64,000 nucleotides of DNA from Heterotrichella gracilis (Eukaryota; Sar; Xanthophyceae; Tribonematales; Xanthonemataceae): NCBI GenBank assembly GCA_032358255.1, contig JAULBX010000003.1:372001-436000 (forward strand), read 5' to 3'. The notes beneath the pieces are model-generated. The model was given only the letters and a program-made list of their open reading frames with translations. It made no database searches and was not told the origin of the DNA. Both the position numbers and the translations under genes were made by a program. Positions 27,901-49,891 of the stretch are shown piece by piece. Within the stretch, counting starts at the first letter, position 1. Each line of letters opens with the position of its first letter.

Positions 27901-30900
27901 TCATCATCCACAGCCTAAACCCTAACCACCATCATGCAATACCAATAGACCTCTCCCCAATCCCCCCACCTTGAAGGGTGTGGTCCACTGCCCCGTGACC
28001 GAACCCCCGCACACCACCTGCAGCCAGCGGGCAGCTGCCGCCACCAGCTCTCCCCCCACCACCGCCCCCCTCATGGGCGCGCATGATGCCAGGTGCAGGA
28101 GGGTGGTGGACAGCTCCAGCTGCTCCTGGTGGGCGTTGGAGGAGCGCAGGGGGGTGCGGTGGGGGGAGGAGGTGCGCGAGCGCTGGAGGGCGGCGTTGGT
28201 CTGAGGGAGGAGGATGGGGGGTGGGGGTCAGGATGGGGACCGGAGGGGCCCAAGGGCGGGGCAGACGAAGGGGACTACAACACTGGAAGGGCGCCAACAA
28301 ACTTTGCACATCCATGGGGTAAATTGGCGCCAAATTGGAAAGGCATAACGTTGACCAGTTTTGAAAACGACTGTGATTTGACTGCTGCAACTGTGGCACA
28401 AGGGTTCAGTCAGTTGGCCTGGTGAATGGTGCAAAGGGGCCTGTCAACGGGTGCGTACCAATGCGATGAGCTTGGGCACCGCCGCCCCCACCTCCTGCGT
28501 GAATGCGGCCAGTACCTGGTGGCAGTAGGGGTCGCCGGGCTTGAGGTACTTGTCAATCTGGGGGGGCACACGCACAAATGAAAAGGGAGCATCAAAACGC
28601 AAGAAGTGGACATGTACGCTGCTTGTTTACTTGAGGGTTGGCGAGGAGGGCAGTGCCCTCCTGTCAACTATCAACCCCCTCCCACATGGGCGCAGGCACA
28701 TGTCACCCCCTTCAGAGACATTGATTCACTGATGAATTGGAGCCAGGGTTCAATAAAAGCCACAATTGCATCGACTCTCGCCACTTACCTAGCCGACAAA
28801 ACCTCGTTTATTTGCTGCTGGAGAGTATAGCGCACCCTCGACACCACCGCATCCGCAGCGCGTGACTGCGGTTGATGCTGACATGCTTCCAGCCTGCCTG
28901 ATCATGCCCACAATCCATCTGACCAAACAACAACCCCGCCACTCCTCGCGCACGCACCCACCACCCCCCTCCCCGCCCCTCACCTGCGCCACCAGCCTGT
29001 TCTGGCACATGGGCCACAGGTACTTTGGCTGCAGCCGCACCACCAGCCCCAGGCACACCAGCGCCTTGCCCCGCACAACCACCCCGGGACTATCCAGCAG
29101 GCCGCACAGCGCGTGCAGCAGCCCCTCCTCAATCTGCAGTATGTCGGTCACGTACTCCCGCAGCTGGGGCAGGGTGAGGGCTAGGCAGAGGGTGTTGGCC
29201 AGGGACGCCTGGACTTTGGTGTTGCCGGAGCGCAGGCCTGCGGGTGGGGTGGGTGGGATGAGGAGGTGGGGGTGGGGGTTGCAGTGTGATTGGTGCCACT
29301 GCATCACAATCACGAGGAAGCCACTGTGGGTGTTGTGGAAAGGTAATAATTTCCAAAAAGAGTAAGCCCGGGCGAAGAATTCATCGACAGGGTTTTTTGT
29401 TTTTAATAAAACAATACCTACAAGGTACCTAATGTGAACAAAACACATTAATATCAGTCATTTCCTGCCCAGGATGACCATGTATATACGAAGAATACAA
29501 ATTTACTCATGCAGCAACTGTTATATAAAATGAACCATCCCTTCCCCTACCTGCGATCACCGCCCGCATGCCCAGCGTGTCCAAGAATGTGCTTGTCAGG
29601 CCAGGGCTGACACGCAGCAGGCGGGACAGCGTGGATGCCGCAGTGGCCCTCAGCGGGTCGCTGGTGGTGCCGGCATACACGCGCGCCAGCTGCTCCACAG
29701 TGGCTGCGGTAGCAAAGTGGCGCAGCCATGGACCGCCCTGCGCCGAGATGTTCTCGATGGTCTTCACCGCGTAGTGCTGCACAGCAAACAAATAAGATTA
29801 AGGTAAGCCCCATCCCCACACTCAACCTGCGCACGTAGTCTGCCATGGGGCCCGGGTGACAAACCCTAAACCCTAAACCATAAACCCTAAAAGCCTAAAT
29901 CAACCCGCAAACCCTAAACCCTAGATCCTAAACCCTAAAAGCCGGAAGCCCACTCCTGCATCATGTATCATGTTAGGCCTCTAAGGGCCCCAGCAGACGC
30001 CGCCGCTACCATAAACCCTAGATCCCAAACCCCGATTCCCACCTGCGCGACGCAGTCCTCGGTTGGCCCCAGCAGGGGCATGACGGCTGCAAACCCTAAA
30101 CCCTTTATTCCAAACCCTAAACCCTGAAGCCCTCACCTGCGCCACGCAGTCCTCTGTGGGCCCCAGCAGGCGGGTGACTGATGCAAACACGCTGTCCGCC
30201 ACCGGCCACTCGAACATCTGCTGCTCGTCCTGCTGCTGGCTGGCGATGTAGAACAGCAGCTCGCCCAGGGCAGCCATGGTTGCGCGCCGCACCTTGTCGC
30301 TGGGGTCGCGCAGGCAGGAGGCAAGCACGTCAACCACGCCTGCACAGGAGGATATAGCTTTGAGGGAAAAAATAGAATTACAACAGATATGAGGTTTTGC
30401 ATGCACAGGGTTAGAAAAAAAACATGTGGTAAAAACCAAAATTACATTATCAACCATGCACTGCATTAAACACTTTATATTCCACCACCCCTGCATAGGC
30501 CAAAGCCACACCGTTGTGCTGTCCCCATCCCCAGCAAGACCTTGATCACATCCCCGGGACGGCACCCCACCTGAGTACGCAAAGTCGCCCTGGATGACTG
30601 TTGCGTGGCGCACCAGCATGCCCACGATGGCCGTGAGCCTGCACTGCATGAGCGCCACGCGCGCCTCCCGCAGGTGCGCCACCACCAGCAGCGCCACCCG
30701 GCTGTTGACCAGCATGTTGGCGGAGGAGGTATCCGCGCACAGGGACTCAAAGTAGGCCAGCACGTTCACCTGCGGCCATGAAGGGACAGCGTGACACGGT
30801 GGGTTTCAGGCTGCATGCTAGGAGGGTGCTAGGGAATTTATCTCTATACAGCAGTCGGGGCGGTGGGGATTTCTAGACTGCGCGGCCGGGGCGATGACAG

Positions 30901-33900: not shown

Positions 33901-35258
33901 ATTTTTAATCAATAAAATAATATATGTTCCTTGTGTAGGTCAACCCCCCACTGCGATTAAACCATGAGAGATAGCTTAAATCATTAATTTATGCCAGGCA
34001 GATGCAATGATTGCCAGCGCGGTTATGACGTCACCTGGTATTGGCTTGGGCTCCGCCATCACGATGTCCTCCATGAGCTGGTTCAGAGACTTGCTGTTGA
34101 ATGGCGGGTGCCCTGCTGCGCACTCGTACAGCACACAACCCAGCGCCCACAGATCGGAAGCAATGGAGTGGGTGGCACCATCCATGAAGAGCTCAGGCGC
34201 CATGTAGCATGGGGTGCCCCTTTTTGCCTGCGCACAAGCGCACGTCAAAAGCGTTGCCAGGTCATACTACCAGAGAGTGGGTACTTGTGTGCACGGCCAA
34301 GTGTGCAAGTATGAAACTAAGCTGACTGCTAACCTGGCTGTACTGCTGGAGTGCGTGTAAGTAACTATCTATATAGGACACCCAGCCTGAATTAATTCCA
34401 GCAACCCCAAAAACATTGCTGAAAAGAAAGGATAGTGTGCATAGAATGTTGGTTGGTTTCAGGAGGATGGGGTACCCACCGGGAGCAGCTTCTTCAGCGG
34501 AGTCTTATTGATCTCCTTCAGGGTGCGCGACATGCCAAACCCTCCCAGCTTGATCCTGCCATTCTCGTCCAGCAGGATGTTGGAAGGCTTCAAGTCGCAG
34601 TACACGATGCTGTTTGCGTGGAGGTACAGCAAGGAACTGACCAGGTCCCGACCAAAGTCGTGGATGGAGGTTTCGGGCAGCTTGCCGTCTTGCTTCAGGA
34701 GGGAAACAAGGTTGCCTCCCACGCAGTACTCCAGTATCAGCCACAGGTGGTTGTTGGTCTCATACCTGGAGCAGCAGTGCTGGTCAGCGAGGCGCAGCGC
34801 TGGTTGGTCAACATCTTGAAACATAGATTGTGGTTTCAATGTGGTTGGCCCGTGACCCTGTATGTCCTAAGCTTACCAGGCAAAGAACTTGAGGATGTTG
34901 ACGTGGTTCAAAGCGTGCATCGTCCGAACCTGCAGGAAAGCTGGCAGTGAGATCCCAGCAGGGTTTGCAGACCCAACTACTTTCGGCACCTGGGTGAGAC
35001 TTGCAGCATGCATGCATACCTCCCGAAGCACTCGTGGCTGCTCAGCCTTGTCCACACTCTTGATGGCATAGTACTGTATGTTCTTCTTCCGCCTCCCTTT
35101 GTAGATAGTGGAGTGCCTGCCCTTCCCAATCACCTCATACATGCTGTTTGTGCCAAGGCAAGGCAAGTCAGCACCAAGCCAGAGAATGGTTGTAAAACGG
35201 TAGCACAAGCAGCTATAAGATTCCAAATAACACCTTGAACTTACTGGTATTGGTTCAT
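24927..35258 (-). CDS. RUK: RUNKEL/ULK4-like protein kinase with helical repeat tail
   Basis: Plant RUNKEL binds phragmoplast microtubules in cytokinesis; animal ULK4 is a pseudokinase linked to microtubules and cilia. Minus-strand exons: 35258-35245, 35143-35020, 34929-34877, 34765-34480, 34227-34035, 33762-33689, 33352-33227, 32894-32690, 32385-32164, 31937-31788, 31605-31403, 31089-30991, 30769-30571, 30339-30137, 29776-29551, 29237-28984, 28865-28794, 28557-28459, 28200-27970, 27655-27433, 27089-26936, 26640-26496, 26220-26123, 25836-25593, 25405-25325, 25049-24927; about 1366 residues. The N-terminus MNQYHMYEVIGKGRHSTIYK mirrors RUNKEL. The kinase domain (about 6-270) keeps K33, YCDLKPSN (D121, N126) and an APE, but the DFG motif reads GFG (G139). 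A low-complexity linker follows, then LALEELIWHPSDTAVKPIVG and HEAT/ARM-like helices such as KVRRATMAALGELLFYIASQ. The exon 17 donor is uncertain: a strong GTAAGT five bases on breaks the frame. Confidence 0.9.
26785..26890 (-). repeat. two copies of kinase-gene exon 21, 3' end with donor
   Basis: Copies at 26785-26822 and 26855-26890 resemble the true junction at 26931-26970 (codons HPPWVQEVxR then GTGGGT). Three candidate donors lie in a row. Confidence 0.9.
29858..29940 (+). repeat. telomere-like CCCTAAA cluster in kinase-gene intron
   Basis: Seven or more perfect and imperfect AACCCTAA heptamers in about 80 bp, inside the intron between exons 14 and 15. It is the densest such cluster in the window. 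A smaller cluster follows at 30091-30127. Confidence 0.85.
30038..30093 (-). repeat. partial copy of kinase-gene exon 14, 3' end with donor
   Basis: Resembles 30132-30187 at an offset near 94 bp (codons LLGPTEDCVAQ and the donor). A shorter third trace lies at about 29983-30000. Confidence 0.9.
31264..31302 (-). repeat. partial copy of kinase-gene exon 11, 3' end with donor
   Basis: Resembles 31399-31437, in the intron after exon 11, spanning the PFAPL codons and GGTACGC donor. Confidence 0.75.
31729..31768 (-). repeat. partial copy of kinase-gene exon 11, 5' end with acceptor
   Basis: Resembles 31579-31618 at an offset of 150 bp, in the intron before exon 11, spanning the acceptor and first codons (PPRSATPS). 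Confidence 0.75.
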
Positions 35259-42606: not shown

Positions 42607-43734
42607 GGTTTTTGGGGAGGGTTTCTGTGCCAGCAGACCCTAGCGACTGAGGCGGAAAAGCTGCTGATGGGCTATTAGGGTTTTGGCGAGGGTTTTCTGT
42701 GCAAGTGATGGATATTACAGGCTGATCGGGAATGTTGAGGGCCTGCTAGAGTAGGGTTGGGATGTGCAAGCGGGGGAGGGGAGGCTTGTGGTGGTGGCTG
42801 GGGGGGTTTACGTGGTGAGTGTCATACGTGCATGTTGTGAGTACCTGTGTGGGGATAAGCTAGGCGCTGTTTGGTGGCAGGCATGTGTGCTTGGGTATAT
42901 GATAGGATATGGGTGAATGGGGGAGGCGCCATACCTGGAACGGGGGACGAGGGTGGGTTGTACGAGTAGGGGATTGAGGAGCGTCTGTGTGCAGCCGGCC
43001 GGCCCCGCGTGTGACGACAGTTATTTGATTTTCTGAATTTGTGGGAAGTGGATTTGATGCTTGAGATTATGGATTTTGGACGTTAGGATGAGCCATTGTG
43101 GGGAACTGCACACACATCACCAGCGTGCAGGTTTTGCGCAATGCTTGCTGGGATTCAGGGTCTGATGTGGTTCTGTGTGTTTCCTCGCCAATGGCCCCAT
43201 GGACCCTAGATGGCAACCAGTCTCGCTACTGCTGAATTTGGTGACAGTGCGACTGACAGTATGCGCTTGTAGATACAGTCTGGGTAGAATTGGAACTCAA
43301 CATGCTATGGGCCCAACTTGGGCGTGCGTCGGGAACCTAATTTTTGGGAGATAAGTGTGATATAAATTGGTGTGCTTGAATAGTATGCAAGCGCTGTAAT
43401 GATACTTTCTTGTTTTGTGACGGGACAATGACTGTAAGCAGAAGGCTTGCAAGCTTTGGCTTTGAGAGTGAAAACGTGTGGAGGAGGCCTTGATAATAGA
43501 GCCTGTCGCACATCATACATGACCACCACCACTATGTCATAGGTGGGGTACTAGGATACTTGGTGGGAAACACAACCATTTACACGGCCTTGCCACAGTA
43601 CTGAACAGATCTCTGGCTTTCTTAAGCTCATAGGCATAATGCAACTGTGCTTAGGTAGTCGTTCCCTATCATATCTTACGCCTCAACTTCAACTCAGGCT
43701 GAGCAAGCAGCAGGTTGGTGGTGGGGTAACAACC
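42607..43734. other. intergenic between two plus-strand genes
   Basis: No recognisable gene. It holds the 3' UTR of the upstream gene, the terminal-exon copy listed separately, and the promoter of the kinase-epimerase gene. Confidence 0.5.
42647..42703 (+). repeat. copy of the terminal coding exon including its stop
   Basis: Matches 42575-42631 at an offset of 72 bp. The true end reads EVEKLLRVY-stop; the copy reads EAEKLLMGY-stop, followed by the same TAGGGTTTT.GG.GAGGG.TT 3' flank. Confidence 0.9.
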
Positions 43735-46700
43735 ATGGTGGGCAAGTACGTCGTAGGAGTGGATGGGGGCACGGAGAGCCTAAGAGCTGGCGTGTTCGAC
43801 CTGGCTGGTGGGTGTACTTCTGCTGTTCGCCTGTGACCTGAGCTTGTAACTGCAGCTATTGTCCGCCATGGGTGGCTGTGTATATTTGCAAGGTATAGTG
43901 CGAGGGGTACAAGGTCAAAGATAGTTCGGTTCTATCGCTTCGCCATAGGTTCTAAGTTTTATTTCTCGTTTTGCACCTTGCAGGGGTCTGTGGGCTGTTG
44001 GAATGTTTTGGTAGTAGGCCATGCGTGTGTGGGGCCATATGCATGCATGCATTTGTTATGGTAGACATTTGACACCCCGAACGAGAGGTTCGCAAGCTGC
44101 GCTGTGCAACAACATGAATTTTTCTGCAGTTCCTGAACCTAAACCCACGAATGTGGACCCCAGCCCCACCTGCCGCCCCCTGAGCTTGGATGCATGCATG
44201 TGTTGCACCCGCAAACCTCTATGCCCTAGAGGGTTGAGGCCCTTTGCCAGTCCTAACCAGTCTCTCTATGATAACAAGCGCAGATTATTGAGTACGTCCT
44301 TCCGCACACGTGTCTGCAGCCAGCTAGGCAGGATGCACATAGGTGGCGCACAGTCCCCACACCACCTTCCCTCCCCGCAGGTACCCCGCTTGCATTCGCA
44401 TCCTCCCCTTACACCACCACCTACCCCCACCCCTCGTGGGCGGAGCAGCAGCCACAGGACTGGTGGGAGGTGCGCTCCGAAAACCCTAGTGAACCCTAAC
44501 CAAACCCTAGGGAAATCCAGGCCAGCATGCGCACAACGACCGATCAAAGCACGCCTACTGAAATCACTGCAAGGAAAGGTAGCAGCGCTGCATGAATGGC
44601 ATTTCCTCCTAAGTGCATGGTAAAGGCAGCAGCACTGCATGTGAGGCAACGAAGCCTGAAAGGCGAGGTTATGGGCACAGCGTGCTTGCCCTGTCTTGTT
44701 GTCTTGTTGTCTTGTTATAGGCGGTACCACCTGTTCATCCTTCACCAAATTTTCTCCATGCCATCAACGCAAATGGGTAGCAATTTTCATGTGGGTGGTG
44801 TGGCTGTGGCGGTGGTGGGTGCGGGCTGTGGTGTGTCATGCGGGTGGGTGTGGCTGGTGCAGGCGCTGGGCGTGGCTGTGGCTGCGGCTGTGGCTGAGGC
44901 TGGTGTGGCCCCGGAGGAGGTGTGTGCGCTGTGCCTGGACACCACATGCTGCACAGTGGTGGCGCTGGATGAAGGTGGGGATGCGTTCACGGACAAGGAT
45001 TCTACCACTAGGGTTTTGTATTGGGCCTACTTTCTCCTTTGGAGACAAAAGCTTTGCTTTGTTTTAAAGGAAGGTTGTCGAGAGGAAGTGCGTGTTTTGT
45101 GAATGACCACAGTGGTATTGGTGCCGTATTGTTTAAGTTATTAGAGTTTCGATGGATACTGTATCTTTGTGCCAATTGCCTCTCCCAAAATCCACCCTCC
45201 CCGTCTCCTCCACCAGGTGGCGCCCCCCTGCGCCCCGCCCTCCTGTGGATGGACATGCGCTCCGCACCCTGATTTCAAAACGAACCAGGACAAGTTTATT
45301 AGCCTGCCGCATTTTGAAACCACCTTGGCCGTTGCCTTCTCCGCACCTCAAATATGTCACTCCTCCCGTCCCTGTTTCACACTCTCCCTTCATTCCAGGT
45401 GGCGTCCCCCTACGCCCCGCCCTGCTGTGGATGGACATGCGCTCCGCCCCCCAGGCTGCACAGGTAGCGGCCACCGCTGACGTGGCGCTGGAGGTGAACG
45501 GAGGGGGTGCGGGGCCGGTGTCTGCGGAATGGATGGTGCCCAAGGCGCTGTGGCTGAAGCAGAACGAGCCAGGGGTGTACGATAGCGCCAAGTACATCTG
45601 CGAGTACCAGGTGAGGGGGTGGGTCGTTGTCCATCAAGGAATCGTTTCCTGATCCATTTGATTTATTTATATGTGCTGGTATTGGGAAGGGTTGTAAAGA
45701 GAAGGCTGTGAATGTGAATGTCACTTAATTCCTTTTCCTGAGGATTTGTTGAACCTCTCCTTTTGCACGCTGTATATGTTTACCCCCCCCACACACGCCA
45801 CCCCTTCCCCCTCCCTGCAAGATATGCATGTTTGCCTTCCCCTTGTTGGAGGGCTAAACTCCCCCCCGTTATCCCTTTTTGTGTAGAAACGCATCATTTT
45901 CCTCCCCTTGTGCAGGACTACATGAACTTCCACCTGACAGGCGCCATGGTTGCCTCCCTGAACAACGTGTCTGTGCGCTGGCACTACCAGCAAGGCAGGG
46001 GCTGGCCGCTCACCCTGCTTGGGAAGCTTGGCATGGGTGACCTGGCGGGAAAATGGCCACAGCAAATTGTGGCGCCAGGTGGGTGGGGTGGGGTCCTGGT
46101 GAGGGGGCAGGGGGCCGCAGCAATGCATGGCAAATGTGTGCATCGCATTCAGGGGTGTTATCATCCTCAACATCAAGTTTTTGCGGGTATATATTGCAGT
46201 GGGAAAGGAGCTTAGGGAGAATTTGTTTTGTCCTATAACTTGAAAGTTTGCAAACACGTTTGACCGAAACTAATGCCATGTTTGATCTGCTTTATCACTT
46301 GGAGATGTCAGAAATATCATACAGAAGGGGGGAGGAAGAGGACTAAGATTGTCACTCACGTTAACTTGGGCCCATAACCCCTTTCCGCACCACAGGGGAC
46401 GTTATTGGCGGGCTGACTCCTGCTGCGGCGGCGCACGTGGGCCTGCCACCTGGCACGCCTGTGGCGCAGGGGGGTGCGGATGCCTTCATCGGGATGATTG
46501 GCCTGGGGGTGCTGGAGTCAGGCCAGCTGGCGCTGCTGACAGGTGCGAGGGAAACCCTAGGGCAAAACCCTTGGGCAACCCTAGCAAACCTTAGGACATC
46601 CCATTCTCAGGAAACCCTTGCAAGCCCTGGAGAGGAATGGATTTGGTGTACCACTCTCAGTGGGCCAAGTACTCAGGAACCACCATTATAAAGGGATTTT

Positions 46701-49700
46701 AACACCCTTGTCCAACACTGGGTAGCTGTGCAAATTACCTGATTTCCTCCCCTCTGCAGGCTCCTCCCATCTCCACCTGGGAATGACTGACCGCACCTTC
46801 CATGGCAAGGGCATCTGGGGCACCTACCCCGCCGCATTGCTGCCAAATGTGAACATCGTGGAGGGGGGCCAGACCTCCACGGGGAGCGTGATAAATTGGT
46901 TCAAGAGGAGGATTCTGGGGGATTCGGTGGGGTATGATGAGTTGAATGCAGAAGCAATGGAGGTTCCACCGGGGTGTGAGCAGCTGCTGTGTTTGGACCA
47001 TTTCCAGGTGAGAAGAAACCCTTCTAGACTGGGCCTGCAATGGAAGTGAAGGGTGTGTCTAGGGTGTAAAAGAGGTAGCTGACAACTGCAAGGATCATAT
47101 CATTGCATGCTACTGAATGCACAGGGTGTGCCTGGGTAATTATTCCCTAAACCTTAAACCCTAAACCCTATTTCCAGGTGAGAAGAAGCCCTTCTAGACT
47201 GGGCCTGCAATGAAAGCAAAGGGAACAAATCGTCCAGGTTTGACAGCATGAACCCCTGTGTGTGCATGTAAGTGACAGCATCCCCTGACACAGCGTGAAC
47301 CATACATTGTGGATCCACACCCCTTCTCATCCAGAAGTGGTATTGCATGCAGGGCAACCGAACACCGCACACCGACCCCCTATCAAGGGGTGTAATTGCT
47401 GGCCTCACGCTAAAGCATTCCAGGGGGCACATTTTCAGGGGCCTCATCGAGTCCGTGGCATTTGGGACCGAGCTCATTTTGGACACCATGCGCGCCCATG
47501 GCTATGCACCCACCTCAATCAACATTGCAGGAGGGGCCACCCGGTCGGATTTGTGGCTGCAAATTCATGCTGATGTGTCGAATCTGCCCCTCAAGGTCAT
47601 GAGGTAAGCAGATCAGTATGACGAGAAATGAGGATGGACAAGGTGGAAGCGATGAGGAGTCATGTATTGCAGGGTGATCACAGGTGATAGCATAAATGTC
47701 TTTTTGATGCAGCCCGGCTGATGTGCGGATGGCAATTTGGTGGCATATGGGGTGGTGCTTCTTGACTGCAGTTGCAACCTTTCACCTTCCAATTTAATCC
47801 CCAACCTTAAACCTTCAACCACATACTTTTGCAGGGTGGCAGAAGCCCCTGCGCTGGGCAGCGCCATCCTGGCTGCAGTTGCTGCTGGCCACTTCCCCGA
47901 CGTGCCCTCTGCAGCGAGTGTTATGGTCCACCTTGACAGGGTAATTCAGCCAAATGAGGCGCGGCATGAGGAGTACAGGTGCGGGCACGTAATAACGAAC
48001 AATGACTCTAAAAATTGTACAGGGGTGTCATAGTATTTTTAAAAGGTGTTGTGTCATGGGTGAGGGTGCGGTGACCTGGTGTCGATGAGCTGGCACTTGG
48101 CAGAGGAATAGGTATAGGTGTAAGAGGAAGAGTACAGGCCACTGCCTGGTGGATGCTGGCATCACTAAACCCTAACCCTAACCACTGAACCCTAACCCTG
48201 TGCGTGCACTCCTGCTCCCGACAGGCCCCACTACGCCGCCTACAAACACCTCTACCACGCACTGACGCCCACCTTCCACCGGGAAAACCCCACGTCACCA
48301 GCACCACCAACAACAACCCCACCACCCACCGGCACCGGTCCGGTCCCCATCGTTGCCCCATCCATTTTGGCGGCTGATTTCGCACGCCTGGGTGAGGAGG
48401 TGGCTGCTGTGGTGGCTGCGGGTGCTGCGTGGATCCATGTGGACATCTTTGATGGCCAGTTTGTGGAAAACCTCACCATTGGACCACCAGTGGTAAGAGA
48501 CTAGTCAGTACCGGGATAAAGTACTGGGATGATGTAGTTTATTTTTCTGACTTTTCTGATTTTTTTCTGGCAAGTGACTTATGGTGGCATGGTTGGGTGA
48601 TCTTGAGGAGATGTGGGGATTACTTGTGTTTTGAGTGTCAGTCTCAATACCCCGGAGTCTACCTATGCAATGTGGCTGCGGTTTAGACAACTGGCACCCC
48701 CCACACCCTACCTTGAACCCTAAACCTGATCTTAAACCCTTAAGCCCTGCAGGTGTCGAGCCTACGAGCGCACACCCACGCCTTCCTGGACTGCCACATT
48801 GCCGTCATCAATCCCCACAAATACGTGCAACCCCTGGCCAAGGCAGGCGCATCCCAGGTGAGCTTCCTCACTGGGGCTGTGGTTTCCTTGTCACACCTGC
48901 AGTCATTACTCGTGTTGTGAACCTGGTTTTTTATGCACATGGGCGCACATGCGCTGCACACCTCATTGCGGGATGATGACCTTGTCACAGGGGTTGCCCA
49001 TTGTTTGTACGAGCCGCGCCGGGTACGCATTTCTTTATATTTCTATTCTAATTTGTTTTCACAATAATTAATTACATTAAAAATGCCTATTGTTCTTATT
49101 CTCATCCTTATCCTTTTTATAAATAGGTGACCTTCCACATAGAGGCTGTGGATGGCGCCACGTCAGCTGCTGAGCTGGCAGATAGCATCCACCAAGCGGG
49201 CATGCGGGCGGGCATTGCAGTCAGCCCTTCCACCCCTGTGGATGCTGTGTTCCCCCTGCTAGATGCAAGGGGGGTGGAGTGTGTGAATGTGATGAGCGTG
49301 CAGCCAGGTGAGCTGTGACTGTAATATCTTAGTGCAAAAGTTTGATTACGCGCAATATTAGCTGTATGGCCATACCCTGGGTAGCCATATAACTAAGGCC
49401 ATGCTTGTCTAAACACTGTGTCCAATGCGCCACCCAGTTGCCCTTGTGCTAATACATTACATCAGTAGCTTGACATCAATAGCTTGATCATTTACTTCAC
49501 TTGCCTGGATTTTATCAGCGCTGTACAACGTCAGCACATGTTACACACAATCTCGCAGCATCCAACGCATGCACTTCCAGGTCAGCTGCATTTCCAGCCG
49601 CATTGAAAGGAAGTGCCTCCCCTCATCGCAGGCTTTGGCGGGCAAAAATTTGACACCTCATCCCTCGTCAAGATAGCCACCCTGCGGCAGCGCTACCCCT

Positions 49701-49891
49701 GGCTGGACATCCAGGTGGATGGCGGGATAAACGACAAAACGGGGAGGGCGGCAGCCGAGGCGGGGGCCAATGTGCTTGTGGCGGGCACCTATGTGTTCAA
49801 GAGCCCCAGGCCCCATGCGGCGACTATTGGCGGGCTGCTGGATGTCATTGCAGCCTGTATGGCTGACAGCCAAGCGGCGCTGTGTCACTGA
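43735..49891 (+). CDS. fused FGGY pentulose kinase and ribulose-phosphate 3-epimerase
   Basis: Exons 43735-43807, 44381-44469, 44863-44974, 45399-45610, 45916-46078, 46396-46542, 46760-47007, 47353-47603, 47835-47978, 48225-48492, 48753-48857, 49127-49307, 49632-49891 join to 750 residues. Residues 1-493 are an FGGY sugar kinase: [18 protein letters not shown] (ATP phosphate loop), [76 protein letters not shown]. This resembles the D-ribulokinase-like branch rather than classic xylulokinase. A Pro/Thr linker (about 494-519) joins a complete epimerase (520-750): [24 protein letters not shown] (H551, D553, D556), CHIAV (H584), SVQPGFGGQKF, VDGGI (D694). The junction falls inside one exon (48225-48492), so the fusion is not a gene-prediction join. 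No transit peptide is seen, so it is probably cytosolic. Ribulose or xylulose would enter the pentose phosphate pool. Confidence 0.93.
45210..45271 (+). repeat. partial copy of kinase-epimerase exon 4, 5' end with acceptor
   Basis: Matches 45392-45453 at an offset of 182 bp. Both read [17 protein letters not shown] after a CAG (with A for V in the first copy). The upstream copy meets a stop directly after SAP, so splicing to it would truncate the protein. Confidence 0.95.
47169..47223 (+). repeat. copy of kinase-epimerase exon 7 end plus donor and intron start
   Basis: Nearly identical to 46999-47053 at an offset of 170 bp, including TTTCCAGGTGAGAAG and about 40 bases of intron. It is preceded by CCCTAAA units at 47147-47168. 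Confidence 0.93.
48164..48200 (+). repeat. telomere-like heptamers in kinase-epimerase intron
   Basis: Four to five CCCTAA-type units just before the acceptor of the exon that carries the domain junction. Confidence 0.75.

Follow-up and report, generated by a model that had tools for sequence, protein, structure and literature searches.

Does a single gene of the xanthophyte alga Heterotrichella gracilis encode two enzymes acting in succession on the same sugar, and are both halves of such a protein of the usual kind? This question is raised by a 64,000-nucleotide stretch of contig JAULBX010000003.1 (positions 372,001 to 436,000, hereafter the window), in which an FGGY-family sugar kinase and a ribulose-phosphate 3-epimerase (RPE) are found in one predicted gene. 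In the present study, the fusion was confirmed at the level of the sequence, whereas the expectation that both halves would look normal held for the kinase and failed for the epimerase. First, an open frame of 750 amino acids runs through 13 spliced exons at 43735-49891 on the forward (+) strand, which carries every part of this gene, from ATG 43735 to TGA 49889-49891. All 12 introns of this model, which was built on splice consensus and homology, are of the GT-AG type, and their phases are all compatible. The product matches the Pfam models FGGY_N at residues 5-252 (5.1e-33, 115.1 bits, gathering cut-off 28.8), FGGY_C at residues 262-449 (1.1e-40, 140 bits, cut-off 27) and Ribul_P_3_epim (PF00834) at residues 523-720 (3.8e-61, 206.4 bits, cut-off 21.1). 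Three complete domain matches in a frame that stays open across 13 exons are not due to chance, and the claim of an earlier note that a full kinase and a full epimerase share one frame was borne out. The same note had placed the Pro/Thr linker and the domain junction within a single exon, which is indeed the case: exon 10 (48225-48492) carries the kinase C-terminus, the Pro/Thr-rich linker (residues ~500-520, 48283-48345) and the epimerase start (residue 523 onwards), and the kinase can be aligned to PDB 3ifr as far as residue 500. Moreover, exon 10 contains no in-frame ATG, the first methionine of the epimerase half is Met630, and the frame immediately 5' of exon 10 is blocked by stops, so that a separate epimerase would require another, unseen first exon. 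Because the junction lies within exon 10 and no separate epimerase start is found there, a fusion is the simplest reading of the predicted gene model. A second in-frame ATG lies upstream at 43639 and would add 32 residues (43639-43734) without a single Asp or Glu; this extension could represent a targeting peptide.

Second, the two halves show different affinities. The top bacterial relatives of the kinase are from Methylobacterium (61% identity), a Pseudomonadota metagenome-assembled genome (59%) and Skermanella (59%). In a tree of 35 kinase rows, the window kinase was one of the 13 rows that make up a clade with a support of 99/96. The named members of this clade are Alphaproteobacteria except for the Pseudomonadota assembly, and four further members come from genomes retrieved by searching within that class or phylum. 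The position of the window kinase inside the clade is poorly supported (85/73), but it falls among alphaproteobacterial kinases. The epimerase half, by comparison, is nearest to the rice cytosolic RPE (PDB 1h1y, 55% identity). It groups with 1h1y, 4nu7 (Toxoplasma) and 1tqx (Plasmodium) with a support of 93/81, just below the threshold and with the bootstrap not settled, and apart from the plastid RPEs 1rpx and 7b1w, which group with 1tqj of Synechocystis (100/97). Thus, the epimerase is closest to a eukaryotic cytosolic RPE and not to a plastid RPE. Of the two pools proposed earlier for the product, pentose phosphate or Calvin, the Calvin pool is not indicated by this grouping, although the protein might be targeted if translation began at ATG 43639.

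Third, the kinase half appears intact and ribulokinase-like. All 33 near-invariant FGGY columns are kept; in a leave-one-out control with 34 distinct other FGGY rows, 26 changed none of them, six changed one and two changed two. Asp245, encoded in exon 6 (46396-46542) and presumably the catalytic base, is an Asp in 36 of 36 kinase rows. Five pocket positions were compared, namely C83 and C84 in exon 3 (44863-44974), E135 and W136 in exon 4 (45399-45610), and H269. Among 19 ribulokinase-like relatives, E135 is shared by all 19, W136 by 18, H269 by 15, C84 by 13 and C83 by six; since position 83 is variable, it probably says little. In the 14 xylulokinase-like rows, these positions (in the order 83, 84, 135, 136 and 269) read M, H, G (13 rows) or S (one row), F and G, and one further row (L091) matches neither pocket type. 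The row labels themselves rest on alignment to XylB (PDB 2itm) and on the binding of xylulose by its residues M77 and H78. The pocket Glu is also present in PDB 3qdk (a ribulokinase) and in 3gg4, named by its depositors as a glycerol or xylulose kinase. These comparisons indicate a ribulokinase-like and not a xylulokinase-like pocket. Of the two free sugars proposed earlier as substrates, ribulose is therefore supported by the pocket, and xylulose is disfavoured by the residues C, C, E and W in place of M, H, G or S, and F. The expected kinase product would be ribulose 5-phosphate, the substrate of RPE, and this earlier expectation gains support from the ribulokinase-like kinase. According to PMC3245297, D-ribulokinases are, in its data set, confined to Alphaproteobacteria and derived from an L-ribulokinase branch; the alphaproteobacterial affinity of the window kinase fits this distribution.

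The gene neighbourhoods of the bacterial relatives were also examined. The Skermanella kinase is flanked by genes for a sugar importer, a regulator, a SIS-domain protein, an alcohol dehydrogenase and a HAD hydrolase. At another locus (L002), the kinase lies one base after a gene of the L-fucose isomerase family (Fucose_iso_C, 40.3 bits, cut-off 29.3), with TRAP transporter genes farther upstream, and the Rubrobacter kinase is found near a transketolase, sugar-phosphate enzymes and rpiB. For these relatives, the contexts are as might be expected for pentose or pentitol use. In Methylobacterium ajmalii (L004), the kinase is preceded by an adjacent SDR piece and by a frame with AraC-like and XylF-like parts; this locus also encodes a D-amino-acid dehydrogenase. 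At none of 20 kinase loci examined does an RPE flank the kinase.

Fourth, the epimerase half combines a complete set of metal ligands and catalytic Asp with changes at positions that hardly vary elsewhere. The residues H551, D553, D556, H584 and D694, listed in the earlier note, are all present, and the claim that the metal ligands and both catalytic Asp are retained stands. H584 is encoded in exon 11 (48753-48857) and D694 in exon 13 (49632-49891), which holds the epimerase C-terminus and the stop. The metal ligands H551, D553, H584 and D694 correspond to His72, Asp74, His105 and Asp216 of the Chlamydomonas RPE as given in PMC9978339. The GFGGQ and DGG motifs are also kept. The curated NCBIfam equivalog model for rpe (TIGR01163) was narrowly missed (208.5 bits against 212.6), and the score for the subfamily model NF004076 (208.9 bits) exceeded its cut-off of 165. 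Nevertheless, four of 32 near-invariant RPE columns are changed: M555F (codon TTT, 48448-48450) and P561E (GAA, 48466-48468) in exon 10, M586A (GCC, 48801-48803) in exon 11 and L658N (AAT, 49286-49288) in exon 12 (49127-49307). In the same columns, nine PDB RPEs change none to two; these nine are the entries with printed alignments, with 3ovp, 3qc3, 5umf, 3inp, 3ct7 and 3cu2 uncounted. In a leave-one-out analysis of 65 bacterial RPEs, 51 changed none, 11 changed one and three changed two, in a sample biased to best matches and with eukaryotic RPEs represented by the PDB entries alone. The two Met and the Pro that are missing here occur in 65/65 bacterial and 9/9 PDB RPEs; a tblastn count gave the second Met in 64 of the 65 bacterial sequences, the exception (L026) being a match interrupted by a stop. 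The four codons are internal to exons 10, 11 and 12, and at least two base changes would be needed to turn any of them into a codon for the usual residue, so that neither an isolated sequencing error nor a wrongly placed splice site offers an explanation.

These changes fall on a known element of the RPE active site. According to the review PMC9978339, three conserved Met (76, 107 and 178 of the Chlamydomonas RPE) contribute to stabilising the intermediate and form a proton-free sulfur cushion, by which isomerisation is prevented and epimerisation is favoured. The three align with F555, A586 and M660 of the window protein, so that only the third, encoded in exon 12, is kept. The earlier statement that both halves look active was thus not upheld for the epimerase, with two cushion Met among its four changed columns. 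Two Escherichia coli enzymes were compared. In AlsE, which acts on D-allulose 6-phosphate and is annotated as a hexulose-phosphate epimerase, both Met and the Pro are conserved and the position of 658 differs; in SgcE, a putative epimerase, the second Met is conserved and neither the first Met nor the Pro is present. On balance, the sequence evidence favours an epimerase that is active but altered; a normal RPE or a regulatory pseudo-epimerase is less likely.

Herein, we propose that the gene encodes a D-ribulose kinase passing ribulose 5-phosphate to an active but altered RPE-derived domain on one chain, a proposal in which we place about even confidence as a whole. One protein would be made, either cytosolic-type or targeted by way of the upstream ATG 43639. 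The FGGY domain, of the alphaproteobacterial kind, would phosphorylate O5 of a free ketopentose, most likely D-ribulose, at the expense of ATP. The ribulose 5-phosphate might then be taken up on the same chain by the C-terminal TIM-barrel domain, in which a metal would be bound and two Asp would move the C3 proton to give xylulose 5-phosphate. Fused enzymes often act in consecutive steps. Because two of the three cushion Met and the adjacent Pro are replaced, the rate, the selectivity or the exact product would be expected to differ from those of canonical RPE. The fused frame, its domains, the two affinities and the kept and lost residues are observations; the substrates, the transfer between the domains and the altered chemistry are predictions drawn from them. 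Of the earlier interpretation, therefore, the fusion of a ribulokinase-like kinase with an RPE-derived domain is maintained and the normality of both halves is given up.

Several observations weigh against this proposal. The changes M555F, P561E and M586A are found in none of the 74 other RPEs and could abolish activity altogether. When the kinase is compared with its 13 closest distinct relatives, four of 126 near-invariant columns are changed (F39Y, A107S, D290A and G340Q), a value within the range of 0-22 for those relatives themselves. D- and L-ribulose cannot be told apart as substrates, because no curated NCBIfam substrate cut-off is reached: the scores were 302.5 of 428 bits for the ribulokinase model PRK04123, 243.8 of 583 for TIGR01234, 287.1 of 380 for XylB and 266 of 409 for TIGR01315. 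The neighbourhoods also include less telling cases. For the isomerase-family gene of L002, none of the NCBIfam models gave a match; a second Methylobacterium kinase (L003) lies between histidine kinase genes, with a HAD hydrolase also there; Sinorhizobium, Nitratireductor and Tritonibacter share importer genes, subunits of a thiamine pyrophosphate-dependent dehydrogenase and SDRs; and in Priestia the kinase adjoins genes for regulators, for an MFS transporter and for a SAF-domain protein. Taken together, the neighbourhoods are mixed; they would suit sugar or polyol use generally and do not fix the substrate.

Among the alternatives, the one that survives best is an ordinary bifunctional enzyme, as the earlier note had it, in which the RPE half is fully normal and the substitutions are tolerated. 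Such an enzyme would agree with the retention of M660, of the catalytic Asp pair and the metal ligands, and of the GFGGQ and DGG motifs, yet the two Met and the Pro replaced here are unfailing in the bacterial and PDB sets, and even AlsE retains them despite its difference at 658; we consider this alternative rather unlikely. Next comes a pseudo-epimerase, in which the C-terminal domain is weak or dead and serves as a sensor of ribulose 5-phosphate or as an oligomerisation or stability module for the kinase. The altered positions lie in or beside active-site motifs, and their number contrasts with the absence of any change in the 33 kinase columns, but decay should also have hit the metal ligands or the catalytic Asp. 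Because the metal and acid-base residues are all kept, simple decay is argued against, and we regard a pseudo-epimerase as unlikely. A repurposed RPE is more doubtful again. Without two cushion Met, protonation at the wrong carbon would go unsuppressed, and ribulose, once phosphorylated to ribulose 5-phosphate, might yield xylulose 5-phosphate mixed with ribose 5-phosphate, or another ketose phosphate might be epimerised; a substrate shift alone does not demand these changes, because AlsE keeps both Met and the Pro. Lower still, and in our view improbable, is the use of another ketose by both halves, e.g. L-ribulose, which would be converted to L-ribulose 5-phosphate and on to L-xylulose 5-phosphate in an adapted epimerase pocket. 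Such a route would agree with a kinase that is not assignable to D or L and with an epimerase altered at invariant sites, but AlsE acts on a different substrate with its Met and Pro unchanged, and no partner of an L-sugar pathway was seen among ten open reading frames scanned in the window. Finally, an origin of the two domains from separate mRNAs, for which one may cite the predicted nature of the gene model, the presence at 48119, within intron 9, of TGTAA (a green-algal poly(A) signal) and the stop starting at 48031 that a retained intron 9 would impose on the kinase frame, is very improbable, given a junction and parts of both domains in exon 10, the missing ATG and the closed frame upstream.

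The occurrence of the fusion was surveyed in plasmid, prokaryotic and viral collections, and no bacterial fusion emerged from the parts searched. Among 72,556 plasmid records, none holds 80% of the fusion in one place, and 1274 give partial matches. The class to which genome G001 belongs was represented by 289 genomes, in which all four matches at E <= 1e-100 end by query residue 519; at most three candidates were scored per genome, so that weaker fusions could escape. None of the listed kinase matches in the searches of 289, 99 and 398 genomes lies in an open frame longer than 632 amino acids, and the 65 bacterial RPE loci, only 2.2-3.7 kb in length, have no kinase nearby. For the epimerase pattern, four stretches were matched in viral contigs, none of them a relative, and the SgcE model NF005944 found nothing in 185 genomes, its control being positive in E. 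coli only. Judged by titles and the openings of abstracts, an FGGY-RPE fusion is undescribed in the open-access literature searched, and it may already be in sequence databases or common to many relatives of the host. Two bacterial RPE matches lie in unusually long open frames (L066, 997 amino acids; G405:C27, 796 amino acids); these could be other RPE fusions or mere run-on frames, and the short L066 locus contains no FGGY kinase.

Other features of the gene and the window were recorded. The remaining exons of the kinase half are exon 1 (43735-43807, with the start of FGGY_N), exon 2 (44381-44469), exon 5 (45916-46078), exon 7 (46760-47007), exon 8 (47353-47603) and exon 9 (47835-47978). Intron 3 contains a 57-base copy (45213-45269, 93%) of the start of exon 4 including the acceptor; no GT follows directly and a stop comes next, and this copy is a decoy exon from a small duplication. 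Similarly, intron 7 contains a 54-base copy (47170-47223, 93%) of the end of exon 7 including the donor site. Telomere-like hexamers (CCCTAA/TTAGGG) occur 56 times in the window, although some 26 would be expected and none of 20 simulations gave more than 36; those in the introns of this gene lie at 44494, 46212, 47145, 47159, 48170-48190 and 48718, and others are found elsewhere in the window. On the reverse strand, an open frame at 34462-34866 (-) carries a partial protein kinase domain (Pfam Pkinase, 3.2e-23), and another at 29984-30805 (-) gives a weak HEAT-repeat match (0.00022, under the curated cut-off). A Pfam scan of ten open reading frames of the window besides the fusion gene revealed nothing beyond these two pieces.

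If active, the protein would be a salvage enzyme by which free ribulose, in two linked reactions, enters the pentose phosphate pool. It would also be a mosaic of a bacterial-type kinase and a host-type epimerase, and its epimerase half might serve as a natural test of the role of Met in RPE, since two of the three are replaced with the metal site and the acid-base pair intact. Two features deserve experimental attention, namely this mosaic affinity and the disrupted methionine cushion. Several known systems may be compared with it. The human FGGY protein and yeast Ydr109c are FGGY D-ribulokinases. The plant AtXK-1 and the cyanobacterial SePSK, ribulokinase-like kinases of the same family to which we assign 5htr and 5htn from the entry names, show only distant similarity to the window kinase (E values of 1e-7 for 5htr and 4.6e-7 for 5htn). 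SePSK can phosphorylate D-ribulose, according to PMC4880283. The alphaproteobacterial ribulokinase-like kinases of Methylobacterium, Skermanella and their relatives are much closer, with 52-61% identity over the whole kinase and a similar pocket, but those examined are unfused and their own substrates are putative. E. coli SgcE resembles the epimerase half in being an RPE paralogue without the first Met and the Pro (it reads E and N), and differs in keeping the second Met, in an identity of only 29%, in being unfused and in being annotated only as a putative epimerase. Cytosolic RPE, such as the rice enzyme, shares with the epimerase half the same metal ligands and Asp pair, whereas the window protein carries F555 for M, E561 for P, A586 for M and N658 for L and is fused to a kinase.

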